Position numbers and translations under genes: made by a program. Shown one piece after another: positions 1,026 to 28,661 of a stretch of DNA of 31,159 nucleotides. How positions within the stretch are numbered: the stretch's first letter is position 1; each line of letters opens with the position of its first letter. Origin of the DNA: a virus; IMG/VR virus record IMGVR_UViG_3300007540_000054, positions 1 through 31,159 of that record; one strand, written 5' to 3'. The notes beneath the pieces are model-generated. The model had not been told where the DNA came from and did not search any database. It worked only from the letters and a program-made list of their open reading frames with translations.

Positions 1026-1305
1026 AGTAGCACCACAAGTAAGAATGAATCTATTTTCCCAAATCCATCAAATTTTATTTCATGGTAAAGGGGGATACGA
1101 TTACGATACAGTTTACCATATGCCCATATGGTTACGTAAGTTTACATTTAATGAAATTAAAAAATTTTATGAAGAAGAAAAAGAGACATCCGAAGGTAAA
1201 ACTCCCGAAGGGCAAACTAACCTAATAGGACCTGATGGTAAAGTAAATACACCCGAATTTGCTAAGGCAAGTAAACAATATAAAGGAAGGAGCAGCTATA
1301 AATAG
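994..1305 (+). CDS. gp51-like ORF, possibly made as a frameshift extension of the gp26-like protein
   Basis: This frame opens after a stop at 982-984 and runs to TAG at 1303-1305. There is no ATG before 1045. The first candidate start is TTG at 994, and the sequence FFGLTSKVAPQVRMNLFSQI that looks conserved begins before the ATG at 1045. It contains MPIWLRKFTF and a charged, flexible tail. Position between the gp26-like gene and the tape measure matches T4 gene 51. Two expression routes are possible: initiation at TTG 994, with an AGGAGGT at 976-982 as ribosome site, or a +1/-2 frameshift on the T tract at 1004-1011 giving a longer fusion. The coding nature is well supported; the start is uncertain. 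Confidence 0.7.
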   Translation: MDLVFFGLTSKVAPQVRMNLFSQIHQILFHGKGGYDYDTVYHMPIWLRKFTFNEIKKFYEEEKETSEGKTPEGQTNLIGPDGKVNTPEFAKASKQYKGRSSYK

Positions 1306-1312
1306 TTGCTCC
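1289..1312 (+). terminator. Hairpin at the end of the gp51-like ORF
   Basis: GGAGCAGCTA and TAGTTGCTCC pair over 10 bp (one G-U) around a TAAA loop, followed by only TTT. The stop codon lies in the 3' arm. The short T-tract makes termination partial at best; it may instead protect or process the message before the tape measure gene. The loop region also contains TATAAATA (1297-1304), the T4 late-promoter core, which in this AT-rich DNA may be chance. Confidence 0.5.
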
Positions 1313-1330
1313 TTTCAATATTTATAACAT
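1313..1330 (+). promoter_or_regulatory. Candidate class B promoter before the tape measure gene
   Basis: TTTCAATATTTATAACAT, with TATTTATAA at 1319-1327, lies 17 nt before the ATG at 1345. It matches the recurrent TATnTATAA box. Confidence 0.45.
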
Positions 1331-1344
1331 ATATTTAAGTTTAT

Positions 1345-3687
1345 ATGGCTACACCACAAGAAATACAAAAATTATTAAAGGAGCTACAATCAGCATATGA
1401 TAGATTAGGTCAAACAAACCCTTTTGCAAATTTTGATACATCTAATATTCAAAATGTAACAACTACAACACGTCAATTAGAAGCAAGTCTTAAAGGTGTA
1501 GAAAGACAAATCCAAGACATATCAGAGGGTATTGGGGATGTTGTAAGCATTTTTCAGTCTACAGTTAATGAAATTTCAAAATCTAATACCGCCCTAAATG
1601 ATACTAAAAAGACATTTAATAGTTTAACTTCTTTAGCACAACAATTACGTAATGATAAGGAAGGTATTAAAAAATTAAATGAAAAAGAATTAAATTCTAT
1701 AATTGAGAAAGTTAAAATCCGAAAACAAGAATTAGGGGATAATAAAATTCAATTAGAACAACGTAAAGAGGCTTTAATAGAAGAAAATAAAAATAATACC
1801 CTTACATATTCTCAAAAGAAAAAGAATAGGGAAGAAATAATAAGAATTAGCGACGCCCTAAATTCAGTTAACGCTGAATATAAAAAAGGTGTAGGTTTTT
1901 CCCAAGATTTAATAACAGCCGCTAAAGACAGAATTAATCTAGAGCAAAAAATTGGTAAAAATCTAGGAGCAAAAGCCTTTTCAGGGATAGCAGATTTAAC
2001 TAAATCTATCCCAGGATTAAGAAATTTTGCAGAACCATTCCAAAAAGCTAGTGATGCTGCTAATGATATGGCTAGGGGTATAGAAGAAGCAGCCAAAAGT
2101 GGAGGTAAAGGTCTTACTAAAGAAAAAATTAAACAATTAGGACTAGAAGGTAAATTAGGAAATCTTGCTGGTGTCGCTGCTGCTAATAAGCTAAAAGGTA
2201 TGAGTGGTTTTTCTAAAGGGTTACTTTCTGCTAAAGCCGGGTTTAAAGCTCTAGGTCCTATGATAACTAAATCTTTAGGTCCTATTGGGTTAATTATGGA
2301 ATTAGTATCCGCCTTTGGTAGAGTCAACAAAGAAACAGTTGAACTTCAAAAAGGAATGACCTTATCTTCAAATGAAGCCTCTAGTTTTAGATCAAACCTA
2401 TCAACTGCCGCCAAACAATCAGGAGACATAAACATTACAGCCTCTAAATTATTAAAAACATTTAGTTCTTTAAACAAACAATTTGGTTTTATAACAAATT
2501 TTGCATCTAAGACTTTAGTTACTATGACTAAGTTAACTGATGTGGTAGGAGTATCATCCGATGCCGCTGGTAATTTAGCAGCAGCTTCAACTTTAACGGG
2601 TAAAAGTTTTGAATCAAATTATAAAGATGTATTAGGAACTAGTTATGAACTTCAACGTCAAGAAGGTGTCCAATTTGATTTAAGAGAGATATTAGAAGAA
2701 ACAGGTAAAGTAACAGGTACAGTTAGAGCAAACTTAGGTGCAAACCCTGCAAATATTGCAAAAGCAATTACTCAAGCTAAATTATTTGGTGCTTCATTAC
2801 AACAAGTAGCATCCGCAGGTAAATCATTACTAGATTTTGAATCATCAATAACATCAGAATTAGAAGCTGAATTATTACTAGGTAGAGACATCAATCTAGA
2901 AAAAGCTAGATTAGCGGCTTTAAACGGGGATCAAGTCACTTTAGCTAAAGAATTAAGAAAAGAAGCCGGAAATTATGACGACTTCATGAAAATGAATGTT
3001 CTTCAACAGGAAGCCATAGCTAAAGCTATGGGTATGCAATCTGATGAACTTGCTGATATATTATTTAAACAAGACATACAAGGTAAAACAGCTAAAGAAT
3101 TAAGAGCTTTAGGTAAAGATGAATTAGCTGATAGATTAGAAGCACAAACTGTGCAAGATAAATTTAATGCCTCTGTGGAAAAACTTAAAGAAATATTTGC
3201 TGATGTAGCTACCGCAATAATGCCATTATTTGAACTTTTAGGTGGTGTTTTTTCATTTATAGGAAAAATAGTAAAATTTGTTGAACCTCTTATAGGAACT
3301 ATCACGGGTGCTTTAATAGGATTTGCAACTGGTGGTCCTATAGGAGCACTAATAGGAGGTGCAGTAGGCGGAATATCAGACGTTAGTAGAGCCTCAAGAG
3401 CAGGTGACATCAACTCCCCAGCAGATGGTAAAACACAAATCTCAACAAAAGAAGGTGGTTTATTTGAACTATCTAAAAACGATGATATAGTGGCGTTCCC
3501 TGGAGCATCTAGGGTAATGGCTCAAGCTAACCAACCACAACAACAAGTTGTAGTACAAAATGATAACACAGAATCTAAAAAAACTAACCAACTTTTACAA
3601 CAGATCCTATCTAAACAAGGAACAATAAAACTAGATTCAACTGATATGGGTACAGCAATGTCTGTAAACCGATACGCAATCCAATAA
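1345..3687 (+). CDS. Tail tape measure protein
   Basis: 780 residues, the length determinant and internal scaffold of the tail tube (T4 gp29 role). The first 200 residues are predicted coiled coil rich in Lys, Glu and Gln. The centre has small-residue and hydrophobic helices (for example LGPIGLIMELVSAFGRV). Near residues 610-680 there is a hydrophobic, glycine-rich segment of the GALIGFATGGPIGALIGGAVGG kind, which is typical of tape measure proteins that enter the host membrane. The C-terminus is polar and Gln-rich. It follows the gp26/gp51-like pair, as expected for tape measure genes and their chaperones. I see no enzymatic domain. The two long minus-strand ORFs inside it are shadows. Confidence 0.85.
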   Translation: MATPQEIQKLLKELQSAYDRLGQTNPFANFDTSNIQNVTTTTRQLEASLKGVERQIQDISEGIGDVVSIFQSTVNEISKSNTALNDTKKTFNSLTSLAQQLRNDKEGIKKLNEKELNSIIEKVKIRKQELGDNKIQLEQRKEALIEENKNNTLTYSQKKKNREEIIRISDALNSVNAEYKKGVGFSQDLITAAKDRINLEQKIGKNLGAKAFSGIADLTKSIPGLRNFAEPFQKASDAANDMARGIEEAAKSGGKGLTKEKIKQLGLEGKLGNLAGVAAANKLKGMSGFSKGLLSAKAGFKALGPMITKSLGPIGLIMELVSAFGRVNKETVELQKGMTLSSNEASSFRSNLSTAAKQSGDINITASKLLKTFSSLNKQFGFITNFASKTLVTMTKLTDVVGVSSDAAGNLAAASTLTGKSFESNYKDVLGTSYELQRQEGVQFDLREILEETGKVTGTVRANLGANPANIAKAITQAKLFGASLQQVASAGKSLLDFESSITSELEAELLLGRDINLEKARLAALNGDQVTLAKELRKEAGNYDDFMKMNVLQQEAIAKAMGMQSDELADILFKQDIQGKTAKELRALGKDELADRLEAQTVQDKFNASVEKLKEIFADVATAIMPLFELLGGVFSFIGKIVKFVEPLIGTITGALIGFATGGPIGALIGGAVGGISDVSRASRAGDINSPADGKTQISTKEGGLFELSKNDDIVAFPGASRVMAQANQPQQQVVVQNDNTESKKTNQLLQQILSKQGTIKLDSTDMGTAMSVNRYAIQ

Positions 3688-12693: not shown

Positions 12694-13293
12694 ATGAGTG
12701 TAAGAATTCAAATTCCCGAATTAAAAGGATATAAGGCTATTAAGAACCCTGCCTTAACTACTGTAATTGATAGAATAATAAATAATAGATGGTGGAACAA
12801 TGAGGGGTGGTCTACCATGTATGATGCACGCTACCAAGAATTTTATGATCTTTTAAAATCAGGAAATTTTTTAGAAAACAGCTTACTCTTAGCATCCAAA
12901 ATGAATTCAGCCCCAGCTGAATTTGGTGAAGATATTAGTGAAGAGAATAAAGAACGACTTAAGCAAGTTTTTGATTTTTTAGAAAAAAAAGAAAACAAAC
13001 CTAATCCTACTACAGATAGAAGTAATGACCCTGAGTTTGGTCTTTTTGAAAAAGATAACACTATAATTGTAGGCAATATGGGATTTAGTATAGTAGATAA
13101 ATCAGGTAGACCACAAACATATCCATACCCAAGCGATGGTGTAGCCTTAGAATACTTAGGAGAAAACTACTTTATTATAGAAGATATTTTAGATGATGGG
13201 GTTTTTGTTTTAAAATCAATAGATGATATGTTAAAAGTATACAAATCTAAGGGCATAAATGTAGATAATGAACAAAATATGTACTTAGTATAA
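12694..13293 (+). CDS. Hypothetical protein (199 aa)
   Basis: Not recognised. The N-terminal half is helical and aromatic (RIINNRWWNNEGWSTMYDARYQEF); a charged, proline-containing linker (ENKPNPTTDRSNDPEF) separates it from a beta-rich C-terminal half, ending in DDMLKVYKSKGINVD. It is expressed with its neighbours: the next gene starts 1 nt after its stop. No membrane or signal segment. Could be a partner of the following nucleotidyltransferase-like protein by tight linkage, which is inference only. Confidence 0.65.
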   Translation: MSVRIQIPELKGYKAIKNPALTTVIDRIINNRWWNNEGWSTMYDARYQEFYDLLKSGNFLENSLLLASKMNSAPAEFGEDISEENKERLKQVFDFLEKKENKPNPTTDRSNDPEFGLFEKDNTIIVGNMGFSIVDKSGRPQTYPYPSDGVALEYLGENYFIIEDILDDGVFVLKSIDDMLKVYKSKGINVDNEQNMYLV

Positions 13294-17349: not shown

Positions 17350-17967
17350 ATGGTAGTGTATTTAACAATACATTTACCTACGGGAAAAATGTATATAGGT
17401 AAAGATAAAAATAATCATCACCGCTACTTTGGAAGTGGTGTTAGTATTAAAAACATTATCAAAACTGAAGGTAGAGACAATTTAAGAAAATCTATTTTAG
17501 AAGAATGTAGTGATTTAGAAACCCTTATCCAACGATAAGAATATTGGTTAAATTATTACGATGTTGAAAACAACCCTATGTTTCTCAATAGAACTAATAA
17601 AGCATATGGTTGTAGTAGGCAAACAGAAGAGGGTAAAAGAAAGATTAGTGAAAATAGAACACCTTTTATTTGGACTAGGGAAATGCGTGAAAAAGCATCT
17701 AAACAAAGAATTGGAAAAACTAAAATCCACCTTAAAACTAGAAGTGATAAAGGAATCAAGCGTGGTAAAAGCCCTGGGGTATCCGGGGCATTAAAAACTA
17801 GGGATAGAAGTTACAGTTATAAAAAAGTAGGACAATATACACTAGATGGAAAATTAATTAAAACATATACATCAGCAAAAGAAGCAAAAAATGAAACTAA
17901 TATAAAAATACAAAATGCCCTTGTAAATAAAACAAAAAGTGCTGGTGGGTATATTTGGAAATATTAG
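17350..17967 (+). pseudogene. GIY-YIG homing endonuclease interrupted by an in-frame TAA
   Basis: The frame encodes 205 codons broken by TAA at 17536-17538 (codon 63). Before the stop: YLTIHLPTGKMYIG (the GIY-YIG core), HHRYFGSG and LEECSDLETLIQR. After it, in the same frame: EYWLNYYDVENNPMFLN, a continuation normal for phage GIY-YIG enzymes, then two NUMOD3-like repeats (GKRKISENRTP, REKASKQRIGK) and a C-terminal NUMOD1-type DNA-binding unit (TSAKEAKNETN ... SAGGYIWKY). Intact enzymes of this kind are free-standing mobile genes that cut phage DNA lacking them. The stop sits where Lys or Glu is expected, so one substitution would restore the gene. It lies between rnh and the helicase, as an insertion would. 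Confidence 0.8.
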
Positions 17968-27023: not shown

Positions 27024-27866
27024 ATGCAAAAACAAAAAGATCATGTAGTAGTTTCATTAAGTGGGGGGTTAGATTCAAGTACCCTACTACTTCGATGCTT
27101 ATCAGATTACAAAACAGTCACAGCTATCAGCTTTGATTATGGTCAAAAACACGTCGTTGAGCTAGAGAGAGCTCAATCCTTAATTGAATATATTGCAAGT
27201 AAAGACCACAAAGTAAACTACCGTCAAATTCAATTAAATGGGTTAGTTGATCTATTAGATTCAGCATTAGTAACCGGAGGGAAGGATGTACCTGAGGGTC
27301 ATTATGAGTCTGATAATATGAAAGAAACAGTTGTTCCTAACAGAAACAAGATGTTTGCTTCTATTTCACAAGCAGTTGCTTTATCTATAGCAAATAGAAC
27401 AGGTGAAACTTGTGATATCGCTTTAGGGGTGCATGCTGGAGATTTCGAAGTTTACCCGGATTGCAGGCAAGAGTTTAGAGATGCCGACGATACCGCATTT
27501 AGAGCAGGAAATTGGAATGCTGAAAGTGTAGGGTATTTTACACCCTATATTGAAGGTAATAAATTCACTATCTTACAAGATGGAGAAGTATTATGTGAGG
27601 AGTTAGGTTTAGATTTTGATGAAGTTTATAAAAGAACTAATACATCTTACAAACCTATTTTTATTCAAAGCGGAAAACTCGTACCTTCTAGCAAAAAAGG
27701 TAATTGGTATTCAGATTACAAATCAGCTTCATCAGTTGAACGTATTGAAGCCTTTATCAAATTAGGAAGAAAAGATCCAGTTGCTTATGCTGATGAAACA
27801 GGTCCAGTTGATTACGAAGTGGCAGAAACCCACGTAAAACAAATACTTGCACAACACTGTAAGTAA
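27024..27866 (+). CDS. queC: QueC-like 7-cyano-7-deazaguanine synthase, zinc cysteines lost
   Basis: 280 residues. SLSGGLDSST (Ser13 to Asp17) is the PP-loop ATP motif; FDYGQKHVVELERA, VPNRNKMFASISQAVALSIA and GVHAGDFEVYPDCRQEF are typical QueC motifs. QueC turns carboxy-deazaguanine into preQ0 using ATP and ammonia. The family normally ends in four zinc-binding Cys; here the TxSC position is TSY, and the last three align as D, S, S in NWYSDYKSASSVERIEAF, so the zinc site is missing although the following Arg and AF are kept. Together with the DpdA-like gene 0.8 kb upstream this points to preQ0 or a derivative in phage DNA. Confidence 0.88.
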   Translation: MQKQKDHVVVSLSGGLDSSTLLLRCLSDYKTVTAISFDYGQKHVVELERAQSLIEYIASKDHKVNYRQIQLNGLVDLLDSALVTGGKDVPEGHYESDNMKETVVPNRNKMFASISQAVALSIANRTGETCDIALGVHAGDFEVYPDCRQEFRDADDTAFRAGNWNAESVGYFTPYIEGNKFTILQDGEVLCEELGLDFDEVYKRTNTSYKPIFIQSGKLVPSSKKGNWYSDYKSASSVERIEAFIKLGRKDPVAYADETGPVDYEVAETHVKQILAQHCK

Positions 27867-27923
27867 GAATATATTTTTAAAAAGTTATTGAAACTTATAA
27901 ATTAAAATATTTATTAGGATTAA

Positions 27924-27949
27924 CGGAGTTCGATTCTTCGTGGAGACTC
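27924..27949 (+). other. tRNA-like T-arm and 3' acceptor strand without a 5' half
   Basis: CGGAG-TTCGATT-CTTCG is a perfect 5-bp T-stem with a canonical T-loop, followed by a 7-nt strand TGGAGAC then T and CA, as at a tRNA 3' end. No GTCTCCA partner occurs upstream, so it is either a tRNA relic, part of a permuted RNA, or a T-loop module in the large RNA. Confidence 0.5.
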
Positions 27950-28163
27950 AAAAGTACTAAGGGATTAGTATATGTCTTTCATCACAGACTTAAACAATTG
28001 ATGGGGTACTAGACTGGACACCCATAACGCCAGTCTCGTTGGAACAAAGCCGGGTAACAGAGGCCCCAAGTAGTTTGACTAATTTTAAGAGGGTAAGACC
28101 TGCAGGTTTATTGAAAGCAAGAAAACCGATACATCTACATTAGAGTTATCCATCTAATGGCAT

Positions 28164-28248
28164 GGAAGATTGGCAGAGTGGTCGAATGCACTGCACTTGA
28201 AATGCAGCGTACTGCAAGGTACCGGGGGTTCGAATCCCTCATCTTCCG
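28164..28248 (+). tRNA. tRNA-Ser (anticodon UGA)
   Basis: Acceptor GGAAGAT pairs with ATCTTCC (28241-28247). D-arm follows from TGGCAGAGTGGTCGAATGC; anticodon stem CTGCA/TGCAG with loop CTTGAAA, anticodon TGA at 28198-28200 (reads UCA); long variable arm CGTACTGCAAGGTACC as expected for class II serine tRNA; T-arm GGGGG-TTCGAAT-CCCTC. Discriminator G followed by CA, so CCA is not fully encoded. UCA is a favoured codon in this AT-rich genome. Confidence 0.95.
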
Positions 28249-28354
28249 CAAATAGTACTTACCACGCTATAACGGATTAGGAATTTCCCGGTCGAGCGTA
28301 CCAGGGTAAGTCTTTTACGAGGATGCATAGTTGCAAATATTTATCCTCAAATTT

Positions 28355-28482
28355 AAAAGAGAGGTAGTGAAGCTGTAATGGTGTAATTGTTAAATCGAAA
28401 AAGGGTTTAGAGTAGAAATAATAATTATAAAATCCATCAGAAACCCCGAAAGACCCGAAACCTCTCTTTTATTTTTTTTTTT
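28355..28482 (+). terminator. Long-loop terminator-like stem at the 3' end of the RNA region
   Basis: AAAAGAGAGGT (28355-28365) is exactly complementary to ACCTCTCTTTT (28460-28470), followed by A and a run of T. The 94-nt loop carries a second stem, GGGTTT (28405-28410) with AAACCC (28441-28446), and a motif CCCCGAAAGACCCGAAA. The base stem with T-run works as an intrinsic terminator; the interior structure suggests it is also the last domain of a structured RNA. Confidence 0.65.
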
Positions 28483-28549
28483 GTTTACACCCAAAGGGTG
28501 ATAAAACTAGTCAGAGATGAAAATTCTTGCAAACTCAATACTTAAAGTT

Positions 28550-28580
28550 GAGCTGTTAATCTACGGGATTAGCTTTTTTA
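28550..28580 (+). terminator. Intrinsic terminator
   Basis: AGCT-GTT-AATC and GATTAGCT pair (8 bp, 3-nt bulge) around TACGG and run into TTTTTT. Confidence 0.65.
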
Positions 28581-28596
28581 AAATAAATACTAAAAG

Positions 28597-28622
28597 ACTT
28601 GGATAACCAGGTATTTTTTTTT
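28597..28622 (+). terminator. Second intrinsic terminator in tandem
   Basis: ACTTGG and CCAGGT pair around ATAA (one G-U), then A and a run of nine or more T. Isolates the RNA region from the downstream gene. Confidence 0.6.
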
Positions 28623-28638
28623 ATATTTAGATAAATTA
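28619..28638 (+). promoter_or_regulatory. Candidate class B promoter
   Basis: TTTTATATTTAGATAAATTA directly after the tandem terminators, 23 nt before the ATG at 28662. Confidence 0.35.
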
Positions 28639-28661
28639 ATAATAATTTAATAAAATAAACA

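Follow-up and report, generated by a model that had tools for sequence, protein, structure and literature searches.

The tRNA islands of phages are already known for a few unexplained RNAs, namely RNAC and RNAD of phage T4, GOLLD and ROOL. GOLLD and ROOL are encoded by phages and prophages near tRNA islands and have elaborate folds and unknown functions, and the linker of GOLLD can hold tRNAs (PMC12286853). RNAC and RNAD (species 1 and 2 RNA) are small stable RNAs that are made late and whose function is likewise unknown (PMC9697503). Self-cleaving RNAs are found in the same setting, as the HDV-like theta ribozymes adjoin phage tRNAs (PMC10879173). Natural circular permutation of an RNA has been described only for hammerhead and twister ribozymes, 5S rRNA and group II introns, besides permuted tmRNA and rRNA genes (PMC10085705).

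Here, we analysed a stretch of 795 bases in a 31,159-base phage record from IMG/VR (the whole record is referred to as the window). The stretch, at 27867-28661, is in all probability a row of separately folding RNAs, designated A, B, C and E, that are arranged around a tRNA-Ser behind a queC-like gene. At least two of these units are widespread RNA families of large phages that are absent from Rfam. The setting is a known one and the families appear to be new, as descriptions of them were found in neither Rfam 15 nor the open-access literature searched. Since the families are compact and common and C occurs in cultured phages, the role of such RNAs is directly testable, and two traits seldom seen in RNAs, circular permutation and a place inside RNase P RNA, provide concrete mechanistic clues.

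Layout of the stretch and comparison with known RNAs

Relatives were collected with the queC-like gene as the anchor, which gave 208 related viral stretches of which 80 loci were kept, and the comparison set for the stretch came to more than 300 phage loci consisting of QueC relatives and loci found with DNA patterns. No open reading frame of at least 40 amino acids is present on either strand of the 795 bases, as a preliminary description of this DNA had stated, and the canonical tRNA-Ser that it placed inside was recovered by both ARAGORN and Rfam as the sole gene (Table 1). The stems it had named were also found again, i.e., the GNRA-capped hairpin, paired segments within 28002-28068, the bulged stem spanning 28257-28311 and the 11-bp stem followed by a T-run. 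For its view of a phage region dense in RNA structure, the strong evidence comes from compensatory changes in C and A. The excess in folding energy is modest for the whole 617-nt molecule (z -2.0, 1 of 20 shuffles equally good). Taken singly, B and C fold better (z -2.7 and -3.2), but z is only -1.5 for E and -0.7 for the 5' part of A.

Table 1. Positions of the features in and next to the analysed stretch (numbering of the window).
Feature	Position	Strand	Evidence or remark
queC-like gene (7-cyano-7-deazaguanine synthase)	27024-27866	+	Pfam QueC 124 bits
tRNA-Thr 3'-half remnant (T arm CGGAG-TTCGATT-CTTCG and 3' acceptor strand)	27917-27951	+	83% identity to 3' half of tRNA-Thr at L078 5212-5284
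RNA unit A (~210 nt)	27951-28163	+	Profile homologues; covarying helices; 3' end abuts tRNA-Ser 5' end
A hairpin	27954-27970	+	GGGA (GNRA) loop
A P2	27974-27977/27986-27989	+	
A pseudoknot	27981-27984/27999-28002	+	
A pseudoknot	28004-28007/28020-28023	+	Crosses stem 28011-28017/28030-28036
A 3' hairpin	about 28139-28159	+	
tRNA-Ser(UGA)	28164-28249	+	ARAGORN; Rfam RF00005 59.7 bits
Candidate RNA unit B	28254-28349	+	Pattern-scan homologues, 25 distinct B1; fold z -2.7
B1 (long hairpin, internal loop)	28257-28263/28305-28311 and CGCU/AGCG	+	
RNA unit C	28354-28471	+	Model R1 match 28357-28469, 96.8 bits; covariation; fold z -3.2
C P1	28354-28364/28461-28471	+	11-bp stem, then T-run
C P2	28373-28375/28438-28440	+	
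C P3 start	28378-28381/28434-28437	+	
C pseudoknot	28403-28408/28441-28446	+	
C conserved strand CGAAAGACCCGAAA	28447-28460	+	
Candidate RNA unit E	28485-28574	+	Hairpins 28488-28492/28496-28500, 28534-28538/28548-28552, 28557-28561/28567-28571
Terminator-like stem with T-run	28597-28620	+	Consensus scan; similar stretch in other loci; closes cluster ahead of next ORF (28662)

At the left edge, the 3' half of a tRNA-Thr is probably the deletion scar of a tRNA array; the 5' half is missing at 27917-27951, ARAGORN reports no tRNA there, and a circularly permuted tRNA was rejected on reading because the matching 5' acceptor is absent. The extent originally given to the structured region, 27915-28482, has this remnant as its left margin and, while it does contain structure, is too short on the right, where E continues to 28574. 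The remnant also speaks for reading the whole stretch as functionless sequence of a degraded tRNA array, which we hold to be extremely improbable. In the case of A and C, the compensatory changes seen between distant phages already refute it. Elsewhere in the window, a small ORF between exonuclease and helicase genes (17578-17967) resembles by eye the DNA-binding part of a homing endonuclease.

Searches of the stretch with Rfam 15, including the GOLLD, ROOL, OLE and tmRNA models, returned only the tRNA, to which permissive thresholds on both strands added nothing credible, and BLAST of the stretch against named phages likewise matched the tRNA alone. None of the units A, B, C and E has a match in Rfam, in agreement with the undescribed class that the preliminary description had offered as its alternative. 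Its suggested kinship with GOLLD or ROOL was reasonable, because both occur near phage tRNA islands and the GOLLD linker may hold tRNAs, but did not survive the model search that it had proposed as a check: the conserved 3' region of GOLLD (RF02032) gave no match at the gathering threshold or at E up to 5, and no covariance-model match was obtained for ROOL (RF03087) or OLE RNA at gathering or permissive thresholds. The search does recover a genuine GOLLD RNA (271 bits) at 7392-7814 in L078, which is related to the window's phage through queC, and neither the C model nor the A profile described below matches this locus. The units share with GOLLD and ROOL the phage setting, the tRNA islands and the elaborate folds; they have no sequence or structure match to either, and whereas GOLLD is one continuous RNA, often of more than 800 nt, that forms a cage, the units are about 90-210 nt long and independent. 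Permuted and ordinary tmRNA, with tRNA-like ends and a tag reading frame, were rejected using RF00023, RF04321 and ARAGORN; two phage relatives (L015 and L078) carry tmRNA (RF00023) in the same neighbourhood, where the window has no match. The tmRNA genes seen in phage contigs are located at 5289-5674 in L078 and 3134-3492 in L015 (both behind queC), 3967-4339 in L172 and 2052-2433 (-) in L127, and a truncated permuted tmRNA match (44.6 bits, gathering threshold 47) is present at 1234-1345 in L295, a 170-kb phage contig.

The units do not keep company in a fixed way. Their order is A-tRNA-B-C-E in the window and B-C-tRNA-A in L130. C is the only unit behind queC in L073, whereas it lies upstream of the tRNAs in L022 and downstream of tRNA-Ser in L026. 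B is present where A and C are absent (L002), B1 also stands alone after protein genes, and E, which follows C in the window, lies upstream of C in L108, L140, L151, L285 and L295. All covarying pairs found fall within units. Since the parts are separate and reordered in relatives, the stretch is most probably not the one RNA of about 570 nt that had first been supposed. A single large and divergent GOLLD/ROOL-like RNA at 27951-28482 with tRNA-Ser in its linker would suit the size, the phage origin, the tRNA island, the occurrence of GOLLD in the same neighbourhood of L078 and the tRNAs that the GOLLD linker may carry (PMC12286853); it is very unlikely given that Rfam GOLLD and ROOL remain unmatched even at E up to 5, and is largely refuted by the shuffling of solitary and reordered units whose covarying pairs stay within them.

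Units A, B and E

The profile for unit A was built from 23 sequences that include the one from the window, and it matched 115 loci of the comparison set, a good part of them collected with an A pattern in the first place, with an E value of 1.5e-38 for the window. A structure-blind search for stacked covarying columns detected five helices above column-shuffled controls, the best of which has 26 compensatory cells as compared to at most 7 in the controls. Two of the helices cross other stems, so that A has two pseudoknots. Members of the family have a GUAAGRGAU hairpin, an H-type pseudoknot, the motifs GGUAAGAC and ACCGNUA (in the window the variants ACUAAGGGAUUAGU and CCGAUACAUC) and a 3' hairpin, with a tRNA directly after. 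Where a tRNA is present downstream (29 cases), the 3' motif lies 26-32 nt ahead of it in 25. A was rejected as a piece of GOLLD or a member of another Rfam family, as permissive homologue scans gave nothing at A units, and queries with A against named phages gave no meaningful match.

B consists of B1, followed by CUUUUACG and the B2 hairpin (28319-28325/28343-28349) with the conserved loop AGUUGCAAAU. Two stems of B1 change in step in a few members, from ACUU/AAGU to ACUC/GAGU and from CGCU/AGCG to CGAU/AUCG. In the homologues of E (L108, L140, L142, L151, L190, L285, L287 and L295) the stems are kept despite changed bases, as judged by eye only. With fewer sequences, and with a weak folding energy for E, B and E are good candidates for RNA families rather than proven ones.

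Unit C and its permuted and grafted copies

Covariation in related phages, which had been put forward as a check, was found for C as it was for A. In 40 representatives, C has an outer P1 of free sequence, P2, a variable P3 and an AAGGGUU loop that forms a pseudoknot with the strand downstream of P2. The pseudoknot is most often GGGUUU/AAACCC, with GGGUUA/UAACCC, AGGUUU/AAACCU, UGGUUU/AAACCA and GGGAUA/UAUCCC as alternatives. Changes on both sides occur in 14 of 18 pairs of the 40 sequences, with a covariation score of 0.411 versus 0.147 after shuffling (0 of 500 as high), and the signal is lost when the partners are slid. P1, P2 and the loop-to-3'-strand pseudoknot are thus supported by covariation and accompanied by the AAGGGUU loop and a YGAAAGACC strand. 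The invariance of a 17-nt stretch is partly by construction, because most members were found with that exact 17-nt pattern.

A covariance model, R1, was made from 40 sequences that include the window and the phages RaK2, Milchi and Hena1; the scores of 66-80 bits in these three phages, like that of the window, are expected since those sequences built the model. Outside the building set, R1 matched divergent copies (C', eight queC loci) that have an altered P1-side loop, in some cases with an inserted hairpin, and that retain GAAAGACC or GAAAGAC and not CCGAAA. Cultured phages that carry C include Klebsiella phage RaK2 and Erwinia phage Hena1, in which it lacks an annotation, and Pseudomonas phage Milchi; a short C query against named phages retrieved RaK2 and others, and a long one nothing. 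No match to a 22-nt pattern, which is present in 71 of the 80 viral C elements, was obtained among 85,000 genomes of bacteria and archaea (257 billion bases).

C is closely linked to tRNAs, with 54 of 71 copies within 150 nt of a tRNA on the same strand, as compared to 9.6% of random positions. Where a same-strand tRNA follows within 400 nt, the distance from the core to the tRNA start is 11-17 nt in 41 of 51 copies. The contexts of C are scattered and include tRNA arrays and places beside a ribonucleotide reductase gene, a helicase gene and a group I intron. C was rejected as a terminator, because a tRNA and not a T-run comes after it in most loci.

At seven loci, C is circularly permuted, with a hairpin that closes P1 and with the ends of the RNA at P3. 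The expected P3 pairing measures 7 to 11 bp in five of these (L106, L147, L180, L189 and L198), and in the remaining two (L092 and L155) the automated reading gives a different stretch and shorter P3 pairings are read by eye. The permuted copy in L189 is adjoined by a group I intron (785-1010, 82.8 bits).

Two phage RNase P-like RNAs with a C domain are encoded at 12720-13005 (-) in L135 (53.3 bits, E 1.6e-15) and 1280-1560 (-) in L149 (32.3 bits, E 2.3e-8); both matches to RF00010 score below Rfam gathering, and the conserved RNase P strands are nonetheless readable. A third RNase P-like RNA with a C domain was recognized by eye at about 3190-3470 (+) in L090, where C has probably been grafted into RNase P RNA as well.

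Possible roles of the units and further conserved elements

In setting, the closest known RNAs are RNAC and RNAD, which lie in the tRNA cluster of T4 as A and C also neighbour tRNAs. Their sequences show no resemblance on reading, and homology with C was rejected since R1 found nothing at rnaC or rnaD with filters off, its best match to T4 in that region scoring 12.3 bits (E 0.8) and being located away from both; the A profile has no match in T4. We infer that A, B, C and E are most likely part of the tRNA transcripts and would be freed by the normal maturation of these, in which RNase P cuts the following tRNA at its 5' end and 3'-end enzymes act on the preceding one. The products would be separate mature RNAs that act in trans as stable phage RNAs, as T4 has with RNAC and RNAD, and their families have probably spread among large phages by way of the tRNA islands. 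In the window, the 3' end of C may instead arise by termination, because a T-run and E, not a tRNA, come next.

The constant spacing of A and C to the following tRNA could also mean that both are only cis-acting leaders of that tRNA, serving as folding spacers or RNase P guides. We regard this as improbable, as C lacks a nearby downstream tRNA in the window, L086, L127, L172 and most permuted copies, the conserved unpaired strands and pseudoknots exceed the needs of a spacer, and dense arrays fix the spacing for any occupant of a tRNA slot.

C is portable, being open at P1, open at P3 when permuted, or grafted into RNase P RNA, and a binding domain is therefore the most likely role. C may well serve as a compact module to which a protein or another partner binds on tRNA-handling RNAs, a reading to which we lend close to even credence and which is favoured by the presence of C inside RNase P RNA.

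The main rival reading is that C represents a new self-cleaving ribozyme class and acts on the precursor RNAs of the phage, for instance by separating arrayed tRNAs. Circular permutation, which in nature mainly concerns ribozymes (PMC10085705), favours catalysis by C with its two circular permutations, as do the scattered genomic contexts and the theta ribozymes that also adjoin phage tRNAs (PMC10879173). Set against this, self-cutting would nick the RNase P RNA that carries the graft, C matches no Rfam ribozyme family, and ten other candidate motifs showed no cleavage when assayed in PMC10085705. We consider such a ribozyme possible, albeit unlikely.

Theta ribozymes are, like C, structured RNAs that adjoin phage tRNAs, but cut beside the tRNA 3' end, whereas C lies mostly ahead of the tRNA. 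They have the HDV double pseudoknot topology, and on topology, the sole basis compared, C differs by a P1 that closes both ends and a loop-to-3'-strand pseudoknot. We know of no theta ribozyme model in Rfam; scans of the window and the C loci with Rfam gave no known self-cleaving ribozyme family. Hammerhead and twister share with C the natural circular permutation of a single core. To our knowledge, the strands AGUGAAG, AAAAGGGUU and YGAAAGACCCGAAA, which are conserved in C, do not correspond to the cores of these two, and a hammerhead-like identity, with GAAA ahead of a stem, was rejected because the core strands misfit.

A broader proposal, which we consider possible, albeit unlikely, can also be formulated. 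C would be a new natural class of RNA whose core tolerates circular permutation, either a self-cleaving ribozyme or some other catalytic or processing domain, located by large phages between their tRNAs and even within their own RNase P RNA, and would together with A belong to a phage RNA machinery that makes or protects phage tRNAs.

Several further conserved elements were observed in the comparison set. A unit D, with a TCCACATTGTGGA hairpin and GGGATTAAGGATTGG..TTCCCGGTCG, is found at 5684-5754 in L022, 5297-5370 in L026 and 4989-5060 in L073, in each case immediately ahead of tRNA-Gln, and also in L216. Downstream of the C' copy in L009, L019 and L004 lies a long conserved stretch free of ORFs (ACATAAAGATA.TAT.AGTAATG.TAGATGTGTTGTTCCCTTGAGAAAGGAAT...), which has no Rfam match in L009. 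Finally, tRNA-like genes with insertions of unusual length in the D arm or the anticodon region occur in L241, L247, L238 and L009 (5234-5322).
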